Assembly (NCBI RefSeq): GCF_900113415.1
Contig: NZ_FOPH01000007.1
Span: forward strand, 62,001 to 126,000
DNA from: Oribacterium sp. WCC10
Lineage (GTDB): Bacteria > Bacillota > Clostridia > Lachnospirales > Lachnospiraceae
Length of the DNA stretch: 64,000 bases
Direction of reading: 5' to 3'
Of this stretch, positions 53,923 to 60,377 are shown piece by piece; positions within the stretch are counted from its first letter, which is position 1, and the number at the start of each line of letters is the position of its first letter. Under the pieces are notes generated by a model. It had not been told where the DNA came from. It did no database searches and saw nothing but the letters and a program-made list of their open reading frames with translations. Position numbers and translations under genes: made by a program.

Positions 53923-54600
53923 TCATCTTCTTGTTTTACTCATAGATACATTCTTATAAAGATCATACAGGAAGGATCCTGTCTTGCCCTCCTCGGGATG
54001 GTCTCCTTTCTTCAGGTCAAGATTGTACTTTTCATAGGCATTGATAATGACAGTACCCGACGGATGTGTACGGACACGCGAGAAGTCACCGTATGACTTA
54101 TGAACATGACCGTGAATCATGTACTTAGGATGATACTTTTCCATAAGCTCATTGAAACACTCAAAGCCTCTGTGAGGAAGATCCTCCATATCTCCGTATC
54201 CCTTTGCCGGTGCATGGGTCAGCAGTATATCAAATCCATTGTGAAGCTTTATACTCCCTCTTAACCGGTCAATACGTTTCTCCATATCCCGTTCCGTATA
54301 CATATACGGGCCATCCTTGTATTTCATGGAACCACCAAGCCCCAGAATCCGAAGCCCGTGATAGTCATATATTCTGTCATCCGCACAGTCACATCCAAGA
54401 GGCGGCTCATTAACATAATATGAGTCATGATTACCCGGAACATATATAAGAGGTGCATGTCCGACAGTCACAAGAAACTCAAGATATTTTGAGCTCAGAT
54501 CCCCAGCCGAAATGATGAGATCAGTATCCTTAAGCTTAGACTCGTCATAATAATCATAGAGCGCTTTATCTTCTTCATCGGCTATCAGAAGTACCTTCAT
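53923..54600 (-). CDS. Metallophosphoesterase (YfcE-like)
   Basis: A 225-residue calcineurin-like phosphoesterase with the dinuclear metal motifs IISAGDLS, VPGNHDSYY, LLTHAPAKG and IHGHVHKSYGD. An insertion near residues 70-105 carries two Cys (GCDCADDR). The N-terminal first Asp motif is ADEED instead of the usual DxH. The substrate is unknown. Its start overlaps the end of the upstream ParB/BMP gene by 26 nt, so the two products probably act together. Confidence 0.85.
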   Translation of the reverse strand: MKVLLIADEEDKALYDYYDESKLKDTDLIISAGDLSSKYLEFLVTVGHAPLIYVPGNHDSYYVNEPPLGCDCADDRIYDYHGLRILGLGGSMKYKDGPYMYTERDMEKRIDRLRGSIKLHNGFDILLTHAPAKGYGDMEDLPHRGFECFNELMEKYHPKYMIHGHVHKSYGDFSRVRTHPSGTVIINAYEKYNLDLKKGDHPEEGKTGSFLYDLYKNVSMSKTRR

Positions 54601-56563
54601 CTGCCTGCTCCCCCTTATTCACCATAAATCCACTCATGCGCATAAGCTCCTGTGCTCTTTCGTCAAATGCCTCCATACTGGGCACAGTACCGATAACGTT
54701 GTCATTTAGCCAATGCATATTCACAATCTCTTCTCCTGTCAGTGCCGGAGAATCCTCTCCCTTTATGAGTCCGGTCTGGCTGTAGAGTTCTCCGTCAAAC
54801 GGATTGATTCCATCATCCATGATCCCCTTTTTAAGAATTCTCAGCATCTTTCTCGAGGCATATCCGAGCTGTCTTGAAAGAATCACATCTATGACTCCCG
54901 ACTTCATGCCAAACCAGAAGTTAAGCGCCTTGTTATCCCTGGTAAGCATTGAGTTTCCCCATGTCCCTCCTAGAATGGAATTGATTATGATCTCATAATA
55001 TTTACCCCAGTCAAATATCGGCATAGCAATATTGGAAACCACGTCTCCGTCAGCCACCATATACACTCCGAACTCTCTGGATATCTTCTTTGGTGGTGTG
55101 AGCTCGGGACCTGAAATCGTCATGATGTTCTCATCTCTCAGTTCCCGCTTCCAGTCTCTTCCCTTAAGTGCGGTCCACTTAAGGTGTATGCGTGCGTATG
55201 GATTCACCATCTGGGCACCTATGGCAAATGCATTAACATTGGCAAGAGTTCCATACTGAGGGCAAAGTTCGGCATAGCCTATATCATGTCCATCAGTAAC
55301 AGAAGCTGCAAGAGCTCCCATAAGGAACTTTGCCTCATACATACGTCCGTAGTAGGTTCTGATGGTGTTGTAATTTGTATTTACTGAACAGTTTAGAATA
55401 TAAATATCCGGGTGCTTTATCTGTGCCTTTACAGATGCATCAATCATCATCCCTGTGGTAGTGAAGATAACATCCGCCCCTGTATCGGCCGCTGCATCAA
55501 TCGCTTCCGATACAAGTTCCGGGGTCTCGCAGTTCTCAAACCTGAAGGTATTTATACGGTCGCCGAACTTATCATCAAGATAATGTCTTCCAAACTCATG
55601 TCCGTATGCCCAACTTGAGGTCTCGGCACTCTTTTCATAGATAAATGCGATTTTGAGGGTATCACCTCTGAATCCCTTGTCCTGAGCAGCGAAAATGTTG
55701 AAAAGATTTTTTCTTTCTTTGTTTTCAAGTACATCCGGATCCTTCACAAGACTGACATCATCCGGATTCTTCAGGAATTCCCTCCATATCTGATCGAGAT
55801 TACTTTCTATCGCTGTATTGGAAACATCCTGAATATTGTAAAGTCCGTAAACCTTGAGATAAAGTAAAAAGGCATCGCCCCGTGTGACTTCAAGGCGATT
55901 TCCACCCTTTCTGTCAAAAATATCGGAAAATCTGTCAAAAGCGGATTTTACGCTCTTACGTGTATCACTGTCCCATGGTCTGGACATCGGAAGTCCCAAA
56001 ACATCACAAAGTTTCTGATACTGTCCTTCTTCGGAAAATCTGATACCATAAAAACCTGCGGCTTTGAAGAACTCAACAAACTCATAATATATATTATTTT
56101 CTTTGGTTCCGTTTCTCTCAGGCATTAATCTTATGACATCTGCAACAATGGATACTGCTCCGTTATATTTTGAAACCGAAACTCTCTTATTACCTTCCTG
56201 AACATAAAATCTGTTCATATACTCATACACGAGTATAGCATCCCTGATACCCTGATCCACTGCAGCATCATAGAGTATTCCCCACTTCATCGCAAACTCT
56301 GTTTTGGGGCTTAATATAGGCATGAAATTCGTCGCAAAGGATTCCTGTCTTCCTCTCGTCTTAGTGCCTGCGATGGCAGATATGGGTATCTCCATAACTC
56401 CCATACGATTCTCCGCAGTAATCACACTTTGGGAAATGATATCATCCAGTGCTGTAAGATAAGGATATCGACCTCCTGTCACATCCTTCCTGTACTGTCC
56501 GTCGCCAAGATGCTTGGCCTTAATATAATCATCTAACATAGTTATTCCACATTGCTTTGGCAT
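54575..56563 (-). CDS. Cytosolic fusion of a ParB-like domain with a BMP-family ligand-binding domain
   Basis: A 662-residue protein with no signal peptide or membrane segment. Residues 40-160 resemble a ParB-like nuclease fold (MEIPISAIAGTKTRGRQESFATNFMPI, then FYVQEGNKRVSVSKYNGAVSIVADV). A helical linker to about 310 follows. From residue 318 there is a BMP/PnrA-type receptor domain (IAFIYEKSAETSSWAYGHEFGRHYL, ADVIFTTTGMMIDASVK, LMGALAAS, GYAELCPQYGTLANVNAFAIGAQM). Such receptors are normally lipoproteins serving nucleoside ABC transporters; here the domain is intracellular and no transporter is nearby. The start is uncertain: GTG-free ATG at 56563 with AAAGG, or ATG at 56539 with GGAA. Confidence 0.75.
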   Translation of the reverse strand: MPKQCGITMLDDYIKAKHLGDGQYRKDVTGGRYPYLTALDDIISQSVITAENRMGVMEIPISAIAGTKTRGRQESFATNFMPILSPKTEFAMKWGILYDAAVDQGIRDAILVYEYMNRFYVQEGNKRVSVSKYNGAVSIVADVIRLMPERNGTKENNIYYEFVEFFKAAGFYGIRFSEEGQYQKLCDVLGLPMSRPWDSDTRKSVKSAFDRFSDIFDRKGGNRLEVTRGDAFLLYLKVYGLYNIQDVSNTAIESNLDQIWREFLKNPDDVSLVKDPDVLENKERKNLFNIFAAQDKGFRGDTLKIAFIYEKSAETSSWAYGHEFGRHYLDDKFGDRINTFRFENCETPELVSEAIDAAADTGADVIFTTTGMMIDASVKAQIKHPDIYILNCSVNTNYNTIRTYYGRMYEAKFLMGALAASVTDGHDIGYAELCPQYGTLANVNAFAIGAQMVNPYARIHLKWTALKGRDWKRELRDENIMTISGPELTPPKKISREFGVYMVADGDVVSNIAMPIFDWGKYYEIIINSILGGTWGNSMLTRDNKALNFWFGMKSGVIDVILSRQLGYASRKMLRILKKGIMDDGINPFDGELYSQTGLIKGEDSPALTGEEIVNMHWLNDNVIGTVPSMEAFDERAQELMRMSGFMVNKGEQADEGTSDSR

Positions 56564-56599: not shown

Positions 56600-56642
56600 A
56601 ACATACAACAACGGGACCAGACGCATATGCCTGATCCCGTAT
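56600..56642 (-). terminator. Intrinsic terminator after the choline-binding protein gene
   Basis: ACGGGA (56611-56616) pairs with TCCCGT (56635-56640), with inner CAG/CTG and GC/GC pairs, followed by a mild TTGTTGT run on the minus strand. Confidence 0.7.
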
Positions 56643-56808: not shown

Positions 56809-58065
56809 TCACTTTGGTCCTACGATAAGTCCCTCATCAAGTGTTGCAGAATCGCTGGTCACAACGGTCTTTGAGGAACTGCTTCCTGAACTTGAAGTTG
56901 TAGTAGATGAAGGAGCCTCAGTACCTGCAACAACTTTATTGCCAGATGATGATCCCGGAGTTGTCCCGGTCACAGTCTGTGTTGAACCTGAAGTATCCGG
57001 TGAAGTCACTGTTGATGTTCCTGATGTGGATACCGGAGAAGTATATGTAGCCGAGCTTCCGGTATTGTTTGTTGTATTTGTTGTAACGGTTGTGGTTGTT
57101 GTAGTAGTTGTAGTGGTACTTCCGTTAGTTGTACTTGTGGTACCTGTGGTAGAAGTGGTTTCTGACTGTGAGCTCTGTGTCGTTCCTGTGGCCGCATGTG
57201 TCACAGAGATACCGTTCACTGAACTTGTACATACTCCGTCACTGTTGAAGTCATATTCTTTACTATCGATGGTAAGCGTCTTGTTCTTAACCATCTTTCC
57301 GCTTTCCTTATCAAGATAGTAATATGAACCTTCTGACTCCAGCCAGCCCTTAACCATCTTTCCGTTCTGTGCGAAATAGTATTTCGCATCATCTATGGTC
57401 TTCCAGCCCTGAGCCATCTTTCCGTTTTCTTTATCAAGATAATACTTATTGCCTGATGTATCCGTCTTCCAGCCCGTCTGCATAACACCCTTTGTATTGA
57501 GGTAGTAGTATGCTCCGTTATTGGAATACCAGCCTGTCTGCATAACACCGTTAGACTCAAATCTGTACCAGTTGTCATCGATCTTTGCCCAGGAATCCAT
57601 AATCAGAGTTCCGTCACCCGGTTGGAAATAATACCACTTATCATTAAGTTCTATCCAGCCTGTAGCCATGGAACCGTCCGTCTTCAGATAATACCATCTT
57701 ACATTGTTGTTCTCGGTAAGCTTCAGCCAGCCTGTCTGCATAACACCGTCAGACTGAAGATAATACCACTTGTCTTCTATCTGCCTCCAGCCTGTAGCCA
57801 TGAGACCGTTGCTTCTGAAGTAATGCCAGTTATCATTGATCTTCTTCCAACCGGTAACCATATAACCATCACTTCCGATGTAGTAATATCCGGATGATGT
57901 ATGTATCCACTTGTTCTTGATGGTCTTGTTAGTAGACTCATCAACATAATAATATTTTCCGTCCTTCTGACCCCACCCCGCAAATGCTGTGGGCGCGATA
58001 ACCGCACAACCGATGGCAAGACTCAGACCAACAACACCAAGTTTACCCTTCATATTCATAATCAT
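56809..58065 (-). CDS. Secreted choline-binding repeat protein with Ser/Thr-rich tail
   Basis: A 418-residue exported protein. The signal peptide ends near TAFAGWG. Residues 30-275 consist of about 11-12 tandem 20-residue wall-binding repeats of the pattern GW-x-DG-x-WYY-x-DG-x-M-x-TG, for example YYYIGSDGYMVTGWKKIN and WYYLQSDGVMQTGW, whose aromatic residues form choline sites in pneumococcal proteins. Residues 290-400 are almost all Thr, Ser and Gly (including ten Thr in a row), probably a flexible or glycosylated stalk. There is no enzyme domain and no LPXTG. GGAGG precedes the start. It lies 65 nt downstream of the LicC/LicA fusion gene. Confidence 0.88.
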   Translation of the reverse strand: MIMNMKGKLGVVGLSLAIGCAVIAPTAFAGWGQKDGKYYYVDESTNKTIKNKWIHTSSGYYYIGSDGYMVTGWKKINDNWHYFRSNGLMATGWRQIEDKWYYLQSDGVMQTGWLKLTENNNVRWYYLKTDGSMATGWIELNDKWYYFQPGDGTLIMDSWAKIDDNWYRFESNGVMQTGWYSNNGAYYYLNTKGVMQTGWKTDTSGNKYYLDKENGKMAQGWKTIDDAKYYFAQNGKMVKGWLESEGSYYYLDKESGKMVKNKTLTIDSKEYDFNSDGVCTSSVNGISVTHAATGTTQSSQSETTSTTGTTSTTNGSTTTTTTTTTTVTTNTTNNTGSSATYTSPVSTSGTSTVTSPDTSGSTQTVTGTTPGSSSGNKVVAGTEAPSSTTTSSSGSSSSKTVVTSDSATLDEGLIVGPK

Positions 58066-58130
58066 AAGTCCTCCGCTATTATATGCTTAAATAATATCAC
58101 GCCTTAAAGCGTACGTCCTTTTCTATTACA

Positions 58131-60089
58131 TTAAATTTTTTCTAATTTTCGTAAGATTTTATAGGAGTCTTTAAAGTAACGGTACATCTTGAGTGTATAG
58201 TCCCCGAAAGATTCTCCAAGAGCCATTTTGTAAACACCCCATAGAGCCCAAAGAAGTCCGCCCATACCCATATACGCAACAACTATCGCATATGCATCGG
58301 TGTAATTCTCGCCATTAAGTGCAATTCCTCCATTTTCACCGAACACTTCAGCGCTTTTGCCATCCAGAACATCACGATAAGCGACAATGAAATCGCCGTT
58401 ATGCCTATCGCCCGAACCCTCCGAAGCATCGGCATATACTTCTATGAGTTTTCCGGTTTCCTCATATGTCATATAGGAGTATATAGCCGCCATGGCAATA
58501 TCAACAAGCGGATCAGCCATACCCGCATACTCCCAGTCTATCATTTTGAGTCCTTCGTCCGTAAAGATAAAGTTGTCCTTTACAGAATCAATATGTGCTA
58601 TAGTCTTAGGTCTGTTAAGAGATTCCAGCCATCCAAGAACCTCTTCAGCCTGCATTCTGACTGTCGGATAGTCCTCATAGGGAACCGAAGCATTAACCTC
58701 TCTTATATCCTTTTCGTATCCGAGAAGCTCACGTCTGAAGTCAAATTCATGATTAAGCTTTATGCCCGAATTATGAAGTTTCTTCAGCATGGCCATACAC
58801 GCTGTGAGCTCCTGTTCAATGGTGTAATCTGCATTCCTTGCACCGTTATAGTATCTTGATATCTTATAGCCGTTTTCTGCATTGAAGTAAACAAGTTCTT
58901 CAGTAATGCCAAGTCCGGTTACTGCCTTGTAGACATCACCCTCATGACGTCTGTTGATAAGTTTTTCGGTTCCCGGTCCGGGAATACGGCAGATATACGC
59001 TTTACCTCTGAACTTTTCAGGAATCTCAGGATCATCAGATATATTAAAATACCATGACTTATTGGTCATTCCGGCCTTCAGACACCTGATATTCACTATA
59101 CCGGATTCCGGAACACCGAAAACATCGGAAACCAGCTGCATGGCACGAGAGCCAGAGTCATTAATATATTTCTCATCAAACAAACGAAGCTCTTCAAGGT
59201 TCTCGAACTCGTATACCTCTCCATCCGGACGCTTGTTAATGTATATATCCGGCAGGTTTCTGAGATTTCTGATGAGAACATCCTCCCAATAAAACTGCTC
59301 TGTGCCCGGCATCTTATAATACGCTTCGATCAGCGGCAGAAATGCATCAGAGAATTCCTTTGTGAAGTATACGGGGCCGTACATACACCACTTGTCTGAT
59401 CCTCCGACATGAACCTCTTTAATGGCACCGTTCCTGCCTGTTTCCATGGCCCACTCACGGGTTTCTCCATTCATAAAAGTAGCCGCATACCAGGCGTCGG
59501 CCTCATAGCTATGATAGATATTATTCCTCATCCAGTTATCGGAAGACAGAATATAGCAGTTTTTCCCCTTAAGAAAATCCTTTGCATGATGCATAGTGGC
59601 CAGAGTATTCTTGCTGCTGAATTCCGGATTGTAAATAAGCTTTACATCATACTTGTCTATGAGGTAGTCAAACTTTTCTTTCAGGTATCCCACCATGATG
59701 GTAATGTCTCTGACTCCCACTTCGTGGAGCTGCCTGATCTGTCTCTCTATCATTCGCTCCCCGAAAACCTCAAGCAGTCCCTTGGGTGTTTCGTAGGTAA
59801 GCGGAACAAATCTGGAGCCGAAACCTGAAGCAAGAATAAGTGCCCTGTCAACTCTGTACTTTTCCAAAAGTTTTTTTCCTTTTTCGGTAAGTTCGTATGA
59901 AACATTACGTCCACGCCCCTCAGAACTCTCAACCTTTGAAAGAAGACCTTCCTCAACCGTTTCCGATATAAGCTTATTGGTCTTTCCCAGGGATACTTCC
60001 AGCTGAAGTGCAATATCTCTTTGTGTGCTTTCCTTATTCTCATATAGAGTGCGCAATATAATTATTGATTCTCTGCCTGCCTTACTCAT
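58131..60089 (-). CDS. wHTH / LicC-type cytidylyltransferase / LicA-type choline kinase fusion
   Basis: A 652-residue three-part protein. Residues 1-80 form a MarR-like winged helix (ESTQRDIALQLEVSLGKTNKLISETVEEGLL, then GRGRNVSYELTEKG). Residues 82-310 are a nucleotidyltransferase of the LicC type (RALILASGFGSRFVPLTYETPKGLLEVFGERMIERQI, ILSSDNWMRNNIY). Residues 325-640 are a LicA-type aminoglycoside-phosphotransferase-fold choline kinase, with the Brenner motif IAHIDSVKDNFIF and metal motif MIDWEYAGMADPLVDIAM. In pneumococci LicA phosphorylates choline and LicC makes CDP-choline for decorating teichoic acids. The adjacent choline-binding protein supports this. LicB/LicD partners are not in the window. 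Confidence 0.85.
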   Translation of the reverse strand: MSKAGRESIIILRTLYENKESTQRDIALQLEVSLGKTNKLISETVEEGLLSKVESSEGRGRNVSYELTEKGKKLLEKYRVDRALILASGFGSRFVPLTYETPKGLLEVFGERMIERQIRQLHEVGVRDITIMVGYLKEKFDYLIDKYDVKLIYNPEFSSKNTLATMHHAKDFLKGKNCYILSSDNWMRNNIYHSYEADAWYAATFMNGETREWAMETGRNGAIKEVHVGGSDKWCMYGPVYFTKEFSDAFLPLIEAYYKMPGTEQFYWEDVLIRNLRNLPDIYINKRPDGEVYEFENLEELRLFDEKYINDSGSRAMQLVSDVFGVPESGIVNIRCLKAGMTNKSWYFNISDDPEIPEKFRGKAYICRIPGPGTEKLINRRHEGDVYKAVTGLGITEELVYFNAENGYKISRYYNGARNADYTIEQELTACMAMLKKLHNSGIKLNHEFDFRRELLGYEKDIREVNASVPYEDYPTVRMQAEEVLGWLESLNRPKTIAHIDSVKDNFIFTDEGLKMIDWEYAGMADPLVDIAMAAIYSYMTYEETGKLIEVYADASEGSGDRHNGDFIVAYRDVLDGKSAEVFGENGGIALNGENYTDAYAIVVAYMGMGGLLWALWGVYKMALGESFGDYTLKMYRYFKDSYKILRKLEKI

Positions 60090-60170
60090 ATTTATTCCTC
60101 TATTCTTCTTATCATCCGTCTATTTCAACCGTTTTTGTTCATAACATCTCTTTTGTTTCAGCTTTTGAAC

Positions 60171-60199
60171 ATGATACCATTGTTTTATCTCCGGCACAA
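60171..60199 (-). promoter_or_regulatory. Possible promoter of the LicC/LicA fusion gene
   Basis: Minus-strand -35 TTGTGC (60194-60199), 17-nt spacer and -10 TATCAT (60171-60176). The rest of 60090-60338 has no gene; a short GGCATtATGCC palindrome sits near 60296-60306. Confidence 0.45.
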
Positions 60200-60329: not shown

Positions 60330-60377
60330 TAATAAATAACCGTCAATCATCCCTCTTAAGGAACGATTGACGGTGTA
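60330..60377 (-). terminator. Intrinsic terminator after glnN
   Basis: ACCGTCAATC (60339-60348) pairs with GATTGACGGT (60365-60374), followed by TATTTATT on the minus strand. Confidence 0.82.

Follow-up and report, generated by a model that had tools for sequence, protein, structure and literature searches.

Can a protein that activates choline also switch its own gene? The question is raised by a locus of Oribacterium sp. WCC10 (Lachnospiraceae), where one reading frame joins a winged helix-turn-helix (wHTH) domain to a LicC-like cytidine triphosphate (CTP):phosphocholine cytidylyltransferase and a LicA-like choline kinase. Choline is a nutrient that bacteria obtain from the host, and phosphocholine is a surface tag that mimics the host. 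The locus lies in a window of 64,000 nucleotides (contig NZ_FOPH01000007.1, positions 62,001 to 126,000; G000:C40:62001-126000, G000 being the genome of this strain), and window coordinates below are positions in that stretch. Based on comparison of sequences, we consider it quite probable that the fusion is a trifunctional choline enzyme-repressor, which would bind an operator at its own promoter and control both the activation and the uptake of choline.

A three-domain protein with predicted choline enzymes

The gene and its domains are as follows.

58131..60089, minus strand: wHTH-LicC-LicA fusion, 652 residues, predicted CTP:phosphocholine cytidylyltransferase and choline kinase with a DNA-binding domain (reading frame, Pfam, PDB sequence search, alignment)
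59853..60089, minus strand: winged-helix domain, residues 1-79 (alignment, NCBIfam)
59160..59852, minus strand: LicC-like cytidylyltransferase domain, residues 80-310 (Pfam, PDB sequence search)
58155..59117, minus strand: LicA-like choline kinase domain, residues 325-645 (Pfam, PDB sequence search)

A preliminary description of this locus had proposed such a 652-residue protein, and its coordinates proved right. The Pfam domains (HTH_27 at residues 8-71, NTP_transferase at 83-192 and Choline_kinase at 336-624) agree with the matches among PDB sequences, in which LicC (1jyk) aligns with residues 70-310 (E 5.3e-34) and LicA (4r77) with residues 359-552 (E 1.2e-26) and, more weakly, with a second stretch at 603-637. 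With LicC and LicA domains in a single frame, the protein has the LicCA architecture. The fusion is present in 15 of the 16 other genomes of the genus, 14 of them with long frames; the copy in G011 is interrupted by a contig end, and G006 is the sole genome of the 16 in which none was found. Its recurrence in these genomes, and the 52 other copies (29-83% identity) aligned with it in 53 rows, show that the fusion is not an artefact of the reading frame. Across the family, 87 of 299 genomes hold a match at E 1e-30 or better (at most four candidates were scored per genome); many of these matches span the full length, and some cover LicC or LicA alone. The named genomes that match best belong to Oribacterium, some of them of oral origin.

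Judging from the alignment, the winged helix is under tight constraint. Q23, R24, L34, G35 and N38 of its helix-turn-helix are invariant across the 53 aligned fusions, the catalytic positions being likewise among the invariants, and S33 is conserved in at least 90% of them. The closest curated NCBIfam model is MarR_EPS (TIGR04176), which all 35 winged-helix domains searched match at E up to 1; the score of 33.5 bits lies below the cut-off of 88, and the model describes stand-alone regulators, whereas this winged helix is part of an enzyme. Outside the fusions, the top winged-helix match (52.9 bits) is a 178-residue frame in G057 (L226, G057:C1:2317813-2318010, minus strand), which is possibly a separated regulator; the same genome holds a LicCA copy without a winged helix (L074).

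A predicted operator in the promoter of the fusion gene

Upstream of the fusion lie three features that bear on its regulation.

60136..60171, minus strand: predicted operator TGTTCA-N24-TGAACA (inverted repeat read in upstream regions)
60171..60179, minus strand: extended -10 box TGGTATCAT, abutting the operator (read from the sequence)
60194..60199, minus strand: weak -35 element TTGTGC, 17 bp upstream of the -10 box (read from the sequence)

The operator is the sole match to TGTTCA-N18..30-TGAACA in the window, where 0.11 would be expected, and the final T of TATCAT in the -10 box is the first base of its first half-site. When one mismatch and a gap of 24 or 25 are allowed, the site is found in 50 of 55 fusion upstream regions, as compared with a mean of 0.13 and a maximum of 1 in dinucleotide shuffles; partial fusions, such as L037, L183 and L184, are excluded from this count. 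Exact TGTTCA/TGAACA pairs occur in these 55 regions at a gap of 24 (34 pairs) or 25 (4), and at no other gap within 6-45. The operator precedes even copies that are about 35% identical, and TATNAT stands at the -10 place before 31 of the 50 fusion sites. The half-site centres are 30 bp apart, close to three helical turns, a spacing that would fit two winged helices on one face of the DNA, spread by a bulky dimer.

An inverted repeat this close to the 5' end of a transcript might instead form an RNA hairpin in the leader, an explanation that we regard as extremely improbable. The first half-site shares its opening base with the end of the -10 box and, at the usual -10 spacing, would lie upstream of the expected transcription start, which makes a hairpin unlikely. 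In addition, a 6-bp stem with a 24-nucleotide loop would be weak, and the repeat has no Rfam match at gathering scores, so that an RNA element was rejected.

The site and the type of winged helix

A more serious alternative is that some other choline regulator, unlinked to the fusion, uses the repeat as its operator, and that the winged helix serves only to hold the enzyme together or to help it dimerise. Four genomes in which a transporter gene of the BCCT (betaine/choline/carnitine) family carries the operator and no fusion was detected speak for it. Against it, the site follows the type of winged helix: LicCA rows with the helix QR..(S/A)LG..N have a site with at most one mismatch in 67 of 78 cases, versus 2 of 14 rows without this helix (Fisher 2.6e-7, with kinship ignored and certain site-less copies lying immediately behind another gene). 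One gene, at G332:C18:19542, is counted twice (L185 and L309), so that 67/78 rows correspond to 66/77 genes, and the search around the start reached to +45 in the first LicCA set and to +90 in the second. In both site-bearing exceptions (L275 and L285) the helix is the same except that VG replaces LG. The recognition helix, moreover, supplies some of the few positions at which the domain is invariant, and the four LicCA copies that lack a winged helix altogether (L074, L293, L294 and L295) also lack the site. Taken together, we hold the unlinked regulator to be quite unlikely.

None of the LicC-only paralogues of the second set has a site at one mismatch or fewer. In L287, L288, L304 and L305 the recognition helix reads STGYISQ, not SLG..N, and the operator is absent, with 2-3 mismatches at best; when the regions before these four genes were searched in a simple way for 5-base inverted repeats in common, no alternative operator emerged, and by eye each gene lies immediately downstream of another reading frame.

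BCCT transporter genes and other predicted targets

Three of the seven exact N24 sites in the genome of strain WCC10 are in promoter position: those before the fusion, before the BCCT gene at C21:78222, where the second half-site overlaps the start codon, and before an operon for a Ugp-like ABC transporter. The other four were considered as operators and taken as chance, three being within reading frames and one in a terminator-like place (by eye). For three proteins of the ABC transporter operon the best NCBIfam models are UgpA, UgpE and UgpB, all below cut-off; Ugp systems import glycerol-3-phosphate and glycerophosphodiesters. Its site is seen again in G010, G011 and G015, which is weak evidence because the surrounding sequence is nearly identical.

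In 61 relatives, the pattern ATGTTCA-N24/25-TGAACA is present in 29 genomes, while the reversed pattern gives 5 matches in total, and several matches outside the fusion and BCCT promoters fall in coding sequence. An exact site lies near the gene start in 15 of the 30 BCCT loci tested in these relatives, and in 13 of 18 within the genus, C21:78222 included. Two of the 33 BCCT places, in G049 and in G007, lie outside this test; nothing in L270 matches the BCCT query, and L268 ends before the gene start. Among the 15 loci without an exact site are BCCT paralogues, a truncated locus, and the loci of G009 and G013. At all nine tabulated N24 sites before BCCT genes there is a TGNTATNAT-like -10 box.

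Among the 299 family genomes, TATNATGTTCA-N24/25-TGAACA yields 40 rows in 27 genomes, and the reversed pattern a single match. Thirty of these rows were traced: 16 precede a BCCT gene, 12 precede a fusion and 2 lie in coding sequence (L200 and L210). A promoter-type site occurs in 23 of the 87 genomes with a fusion match (LicC-only and LicA-only matches included) versus 4 of the 212 without one (Fisher 2.9e-10, kinship ignored). In three of the latter four (G088, G103 and G154) the site is the BCCT site.

Several observations weigh against self-regulation by the fusion. Its promoter was not listed by a generic promoter scan. Five of the 55 fusions have no site, namely L074, which has no winged helix, two of the four copies in L064, L069, which has one half-site, and L178. 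In the second LicCA set, 7 of 24 copies with the helix motif are likewise without a site, and L300, which has the VG helix too, lacks it. In many distant copies the start codon falls within the second half-site, in the common start ATGAACA, and the weight of those sites is lowered to that extent. As a control, genes starting with ATGAACA in all fetched loci were searched for the other half-site (at most one mismatch, gap 24 or 25). It was found in 18 of 28 genes of the fusion type and in 12 of 17 BCCT genes, as compared with 5 of 52 others, of which at least three (L122, L124 and L140) are in loci selected by pattern. G009 and G013 carry the fusion, yet their BCCT gene has no site. Conversely, BCCT genes with an exact operator exist in G006 (L253), G088 (L208), G103 (L213) and G154 (L214), in which a directed search found no fusion; these genomes are 93, 93, 89 and 98% complete, respectively. 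No close stand-alone winged helix was found in the four either, the best profile scores being 24 to 28.7 bits as compared with 99.5 bits for the copy in the window. These cases would be explained by gaps in the assemblies or by another regulator that reads the same site.

In the genome fragment L064 (a Mageeibacillus metagenome-assembled genome, MAG), a 13-kb stretch contains four full-length wHTH-LicC-LicA copies, two with the operator and two without.

Catalytic domains and substrate

LicC residues D107, W136 and Y190, which we take to serve the metal and choline sites, are kept in the fusion as D184, W213 and Y267, as is E216 (E294); D105, D192 and R129 are changed to S182, E269 and M206, respectively (1jyk alignment). 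PMC6697681 (in excerpt) gives D105, D192, R129 and E216 functional roles in LicC, and reports that the positions of D105 and D192 are Glu in the phosphonate enzyme PntC. Of these two specificity positions, the fusion is PntC-like at E269 and has a small residue at S182. In the kinase domain, the catalytic LicA residues D176, N181 and D194 correspond to D501, N506 and D518, and the choline-pocket residues Y197, W251, W254 and Y268 to Y521, W614, W617 and Y631, all of them nearly invariant in the 53-row alignment; pocket residue E213 is replaced by Y537 (LicA residues as named in the excerpt of PMC4364537).

The substrate might not be choline: the LicC domain could instead activate a different phosphorylated amine or a phosphonate, with phosphoethanolamine and aminoethylphosphonate as examples. 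The replacement of D192 by a nearly invariant Glu, like E196 of PntC, counts against choline, as does Ser at D105, given the roles of these residues (PMC6697681, in excerpt). PntC enzymes are related to LicC, and the PntC structure 6pd1 matches the LicC-like domain (E 2.6e-9). We nevertheless consider this very unlikely: the equivalents of LicA W251, W254, Y268 and Y197 are kept, a phosphonate needs no kinase partner, and the BCCT family, by its name, transports quaternary amines. A fused kinase and a BCCT transporter that share a predicted operator would favour choline. The preliminary description had also allowed for a sugar-1-phosphate nucleotidyltransferase; this concern is not borne out, as every sugar enzyme among PDB sequences matches the domain far less closely than LicC does.

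Possible surface phosphocholine and the surroundings of the fusion

The genes and hairpins around the fusion are as follows.

56809..58065, minus strand: secreted-looking choline-binding-repeat protein, 418 residues, with a Ser/Thr-rich C-terminal tail (reading frame, Pfam, motif count)
60339..60374, minus strand: strong hairpin of 16 pairs, terminator-like, separating the upstream gene from the fusion promoter (hairpin scan)
58098..58113, minus strand: weak terminator-like hairpin, 6 pairs, between the fusion and the choline-binding protein (hairpin scan)
56611..56640, minus strand: terminator-like hairpin of 12 pairs, downstream of the choline-binding protein gene (hairpin scan)

The choline-binding-repeat gene starts 65 bp downstream of the fusion, and the two likely form one operon, in which the hairpin at 58098..58113 may attenuate read-through from the fusion. 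Its product, a secreted repeat protein with a Ser/Thr tail according to the preliminary description, indeed begins like a signal peptide and scores 177.6 bits on Choline_bind_3 (six stretches, with Choline_bind_1 in addition), passing the Pfam cut-off; a simple motif count gives nine repeats. Upstream of the fusion is a 752-residue frame that resembles glutamine synthetase by eye.

The term 'self-contained module' used earlier does not hold, since the BCCT transporter and all three LicD genes of the genome are on other contigs than the fusion. The presence of these LicD genes, each over the Pfam cut-off, removes the possibility that the genome lacks a LicD-type transferase, and the proposed search for more choline-binding proteins returned Choline_bind_3 matches in 17 frames, 15 of them over the cut-off. 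Surface phosphocholine in Oribacterium is plausible. By motif count, 31 of 41 close copies of the fusion, and 0 of 8 distant ones, have a choline-binding-repeat gene next in line (a 32nd match, L072, is a transporter and was left out). In the oral Oribacterium loci L076, L078 and L081 such a gene lies 0.5-2 kb farther on, and in G035 the gene after the fusion encodes a GH25 lysozyme with choline-binding repeats.

The LicC-LicA fusion as such is already known. In Treponema denticola, LicCA joins LicC to LicA and converts choline to cytidine diphosphate (CDP)-choline for phosphatidylcholine; the excerpted description mentions no winged helix (PMC8590670). CDP-choline might likewise be used mainly for phosphatidylcholine in Oribacterium, with the repeats binding another ligand, such as glucan. 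The LicCA and cholinephosphotransferase pathway of T. denticola (PMC8590670, in excerpt) lends this some weight, and the neighbouring protein scores, below cut-off, on the glucan-binding repeat model TIGR04035. The frequency with which a choline-binding-repeat gene follows close copies of the fusion, together with the three LicD genes and 17 repeat-bearing frames, points the other way, and we regard a main role in phosphatidylcholine synthesis as unlikely.

Distant copies have other surroundings. Their neighbours are a LicB-like EamA transporter in L067 (Pfam) and L079 (by eye), LicC and LicA paralogues, LicD and BCCT genes (L068), or a glycerophosphotransferase-like gene in L072. In L069 (4039-13615, G046:C14), the fusion and a LicC paralogue stand amid corrinoid/methyltransferase-like genes (by eye), an MttB homologue (Pfam) and a BCCT gene. 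This gene set resembles the phosphocholine demethylation pathway of Eubacterium limosum, in which phosphocholine can serve as a demethylation substrate (PMC12155760, in excerpt); demethylation is a possible second use of phosphocholine in loci of the G046 type.

Further loci provide observations in their own right. On contig G000:C37, a LicD domain occurs in a 664-residue frame close to a fliF-like gene (L017:6904-8898, minus strand; fliF by eye), and two choline-binding-repeat proteins adjoin a lytic-transglycosylase-like gene (L020:3100-5731, minus strand; by eye); flagellin or a flagellar glycan may be a phosphocholine target. L080 (5302-11034, G034:C56) encodes a wHTH-LicC-like protein of 337 residues without LicA; on one side of it is a choline-binding-repeat protein and on the other a further protein that looks secreted (by eye). 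A Spirochaetaceae MAG contig (L066) holds a LicC-like piece with 55% identity to the Oribacterium domain, possibly a lateral transfer. Within the window, a 662-residue protein (54575-56563, minus strand) ends in a PnrA-like (Bmp) domain, whereas its N-terminal part matches nothing in Pfam; frames of similar length (638-683 residues) stand at the equivalent place in five other Oribacterium loci (L075-L078 and L081; compared by length only).

Comparison with known systems

The nearest functional parallel is NadR of Enterobacterales, in which a helix-turn-helix is joined to a nicotinamide mononucleotide (NMN) adenylyltransferase and a ribosylnicotinamide kinase, and which represses genes of nicotinamide adenine dinucleotide (NAD) synthesis and salvage; outside Enterobacterales, the DNA-binding domain is mostly absent (PMC12421817, in excerpt). 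The fusion shares the order helix-turn-helix, nucleotidyltransferase, kinase with this description, and its predicted operators precede its own gene and an uptake gene. It differs in having choline enzymes, a MarR-type winged helix, half-sites 24 bp apart, a home in the Lachnospiraceae, and regulation that is so far a prediction. Its best PDB matches are LicC and LicA, and none of the 36 listed is a NadR. By analogy, the family is predicted to work like NadR, yet it is no NadR homologue.

Parts of the system have counterparts elsewhere. The lic locus of Streptococcus pneumoniae comprises LicA, LicB, LicC and LicD together with choline-binding proteins (PMC4364537, in excerpt); the two enzymatic steps predicted for the fusion take place there too, and choline-binding proteins are shared, whereas the enzymes are separate proteins, and the matched solved LicA and LicC chains have no DNA-binding domain. 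GbsR of Bacillus subtilis is a MarR-type, choline-sensing repressor of choline uptake; in contrast to the fusion, the excerpted account mentions no enzyme domain, and it gives half-sites 4 bp apart and downstream of the start, as well as control of glycine betaine synthesis (PMC7396694). PntC, an aminoethylphosphonate cytidylyltransferase that in T. denticola is fused to an aminotransferase (PMC6697681, in excerpt), has the LicC-like domain in common with the fusion. The arrangement had been called little-described: this does not apply to LicCA itself (PMC8590670, in excerpt), and for a fusion of a choline regulator to an enzyme we found no description in the literature searched.

A model for choline-responsive control

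We propose that the LicA domain phosphorylates choline and the LicC domain makes CDP-choline, as homology and pocket residues suggest. The N-terminal winged helix would bind TGTTCA-N24-TGAACA at its own promoter and, in many relatives, at the BCCT promoter, where the bound repressor would cover the -10 box and the start region and thereby block RNA polymerase. Choline, phosphocholine or CDP-choline in the catalytic domains could tune DNA binding, so that uptake, activation and, via the adjoining gene, a phosphocholine-anchored surface protein might track choline supply. LicD enzymes encoded elsewhere would transfer phosphocholine onto surface glycans. A conserved repeat embedded in the promoters of fusion and BCCT genes is as expected under self-regulation and, with the constrained winged helix, lends good comparative support to the earlier suggestion that the protein could regulate its own locus, more than could be known from the window alone.

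Beyond this genome, we think it rather likely that the fusions form an undescribed family of choline-sensing enzyme-repressors that is widespread in the Lachnospiraceae, in which the catalytic domains would act as the sensor and a 36-bp operator would coordinate choline import, CDP-choline synthesis and a surface protein, as a convergent counterpart of NadR. If this is true, a single protein would combine enzyme activity with the genetic switch that governs choline uptake and the display of phosphocholine in Oribacterium and many other Lachnospiraceae, and the NadR architecture would have a second, independent origin. The reading supplies a precise DNA site and a list of targets, and it would offer a handle for predicting choline use from genome sequence.

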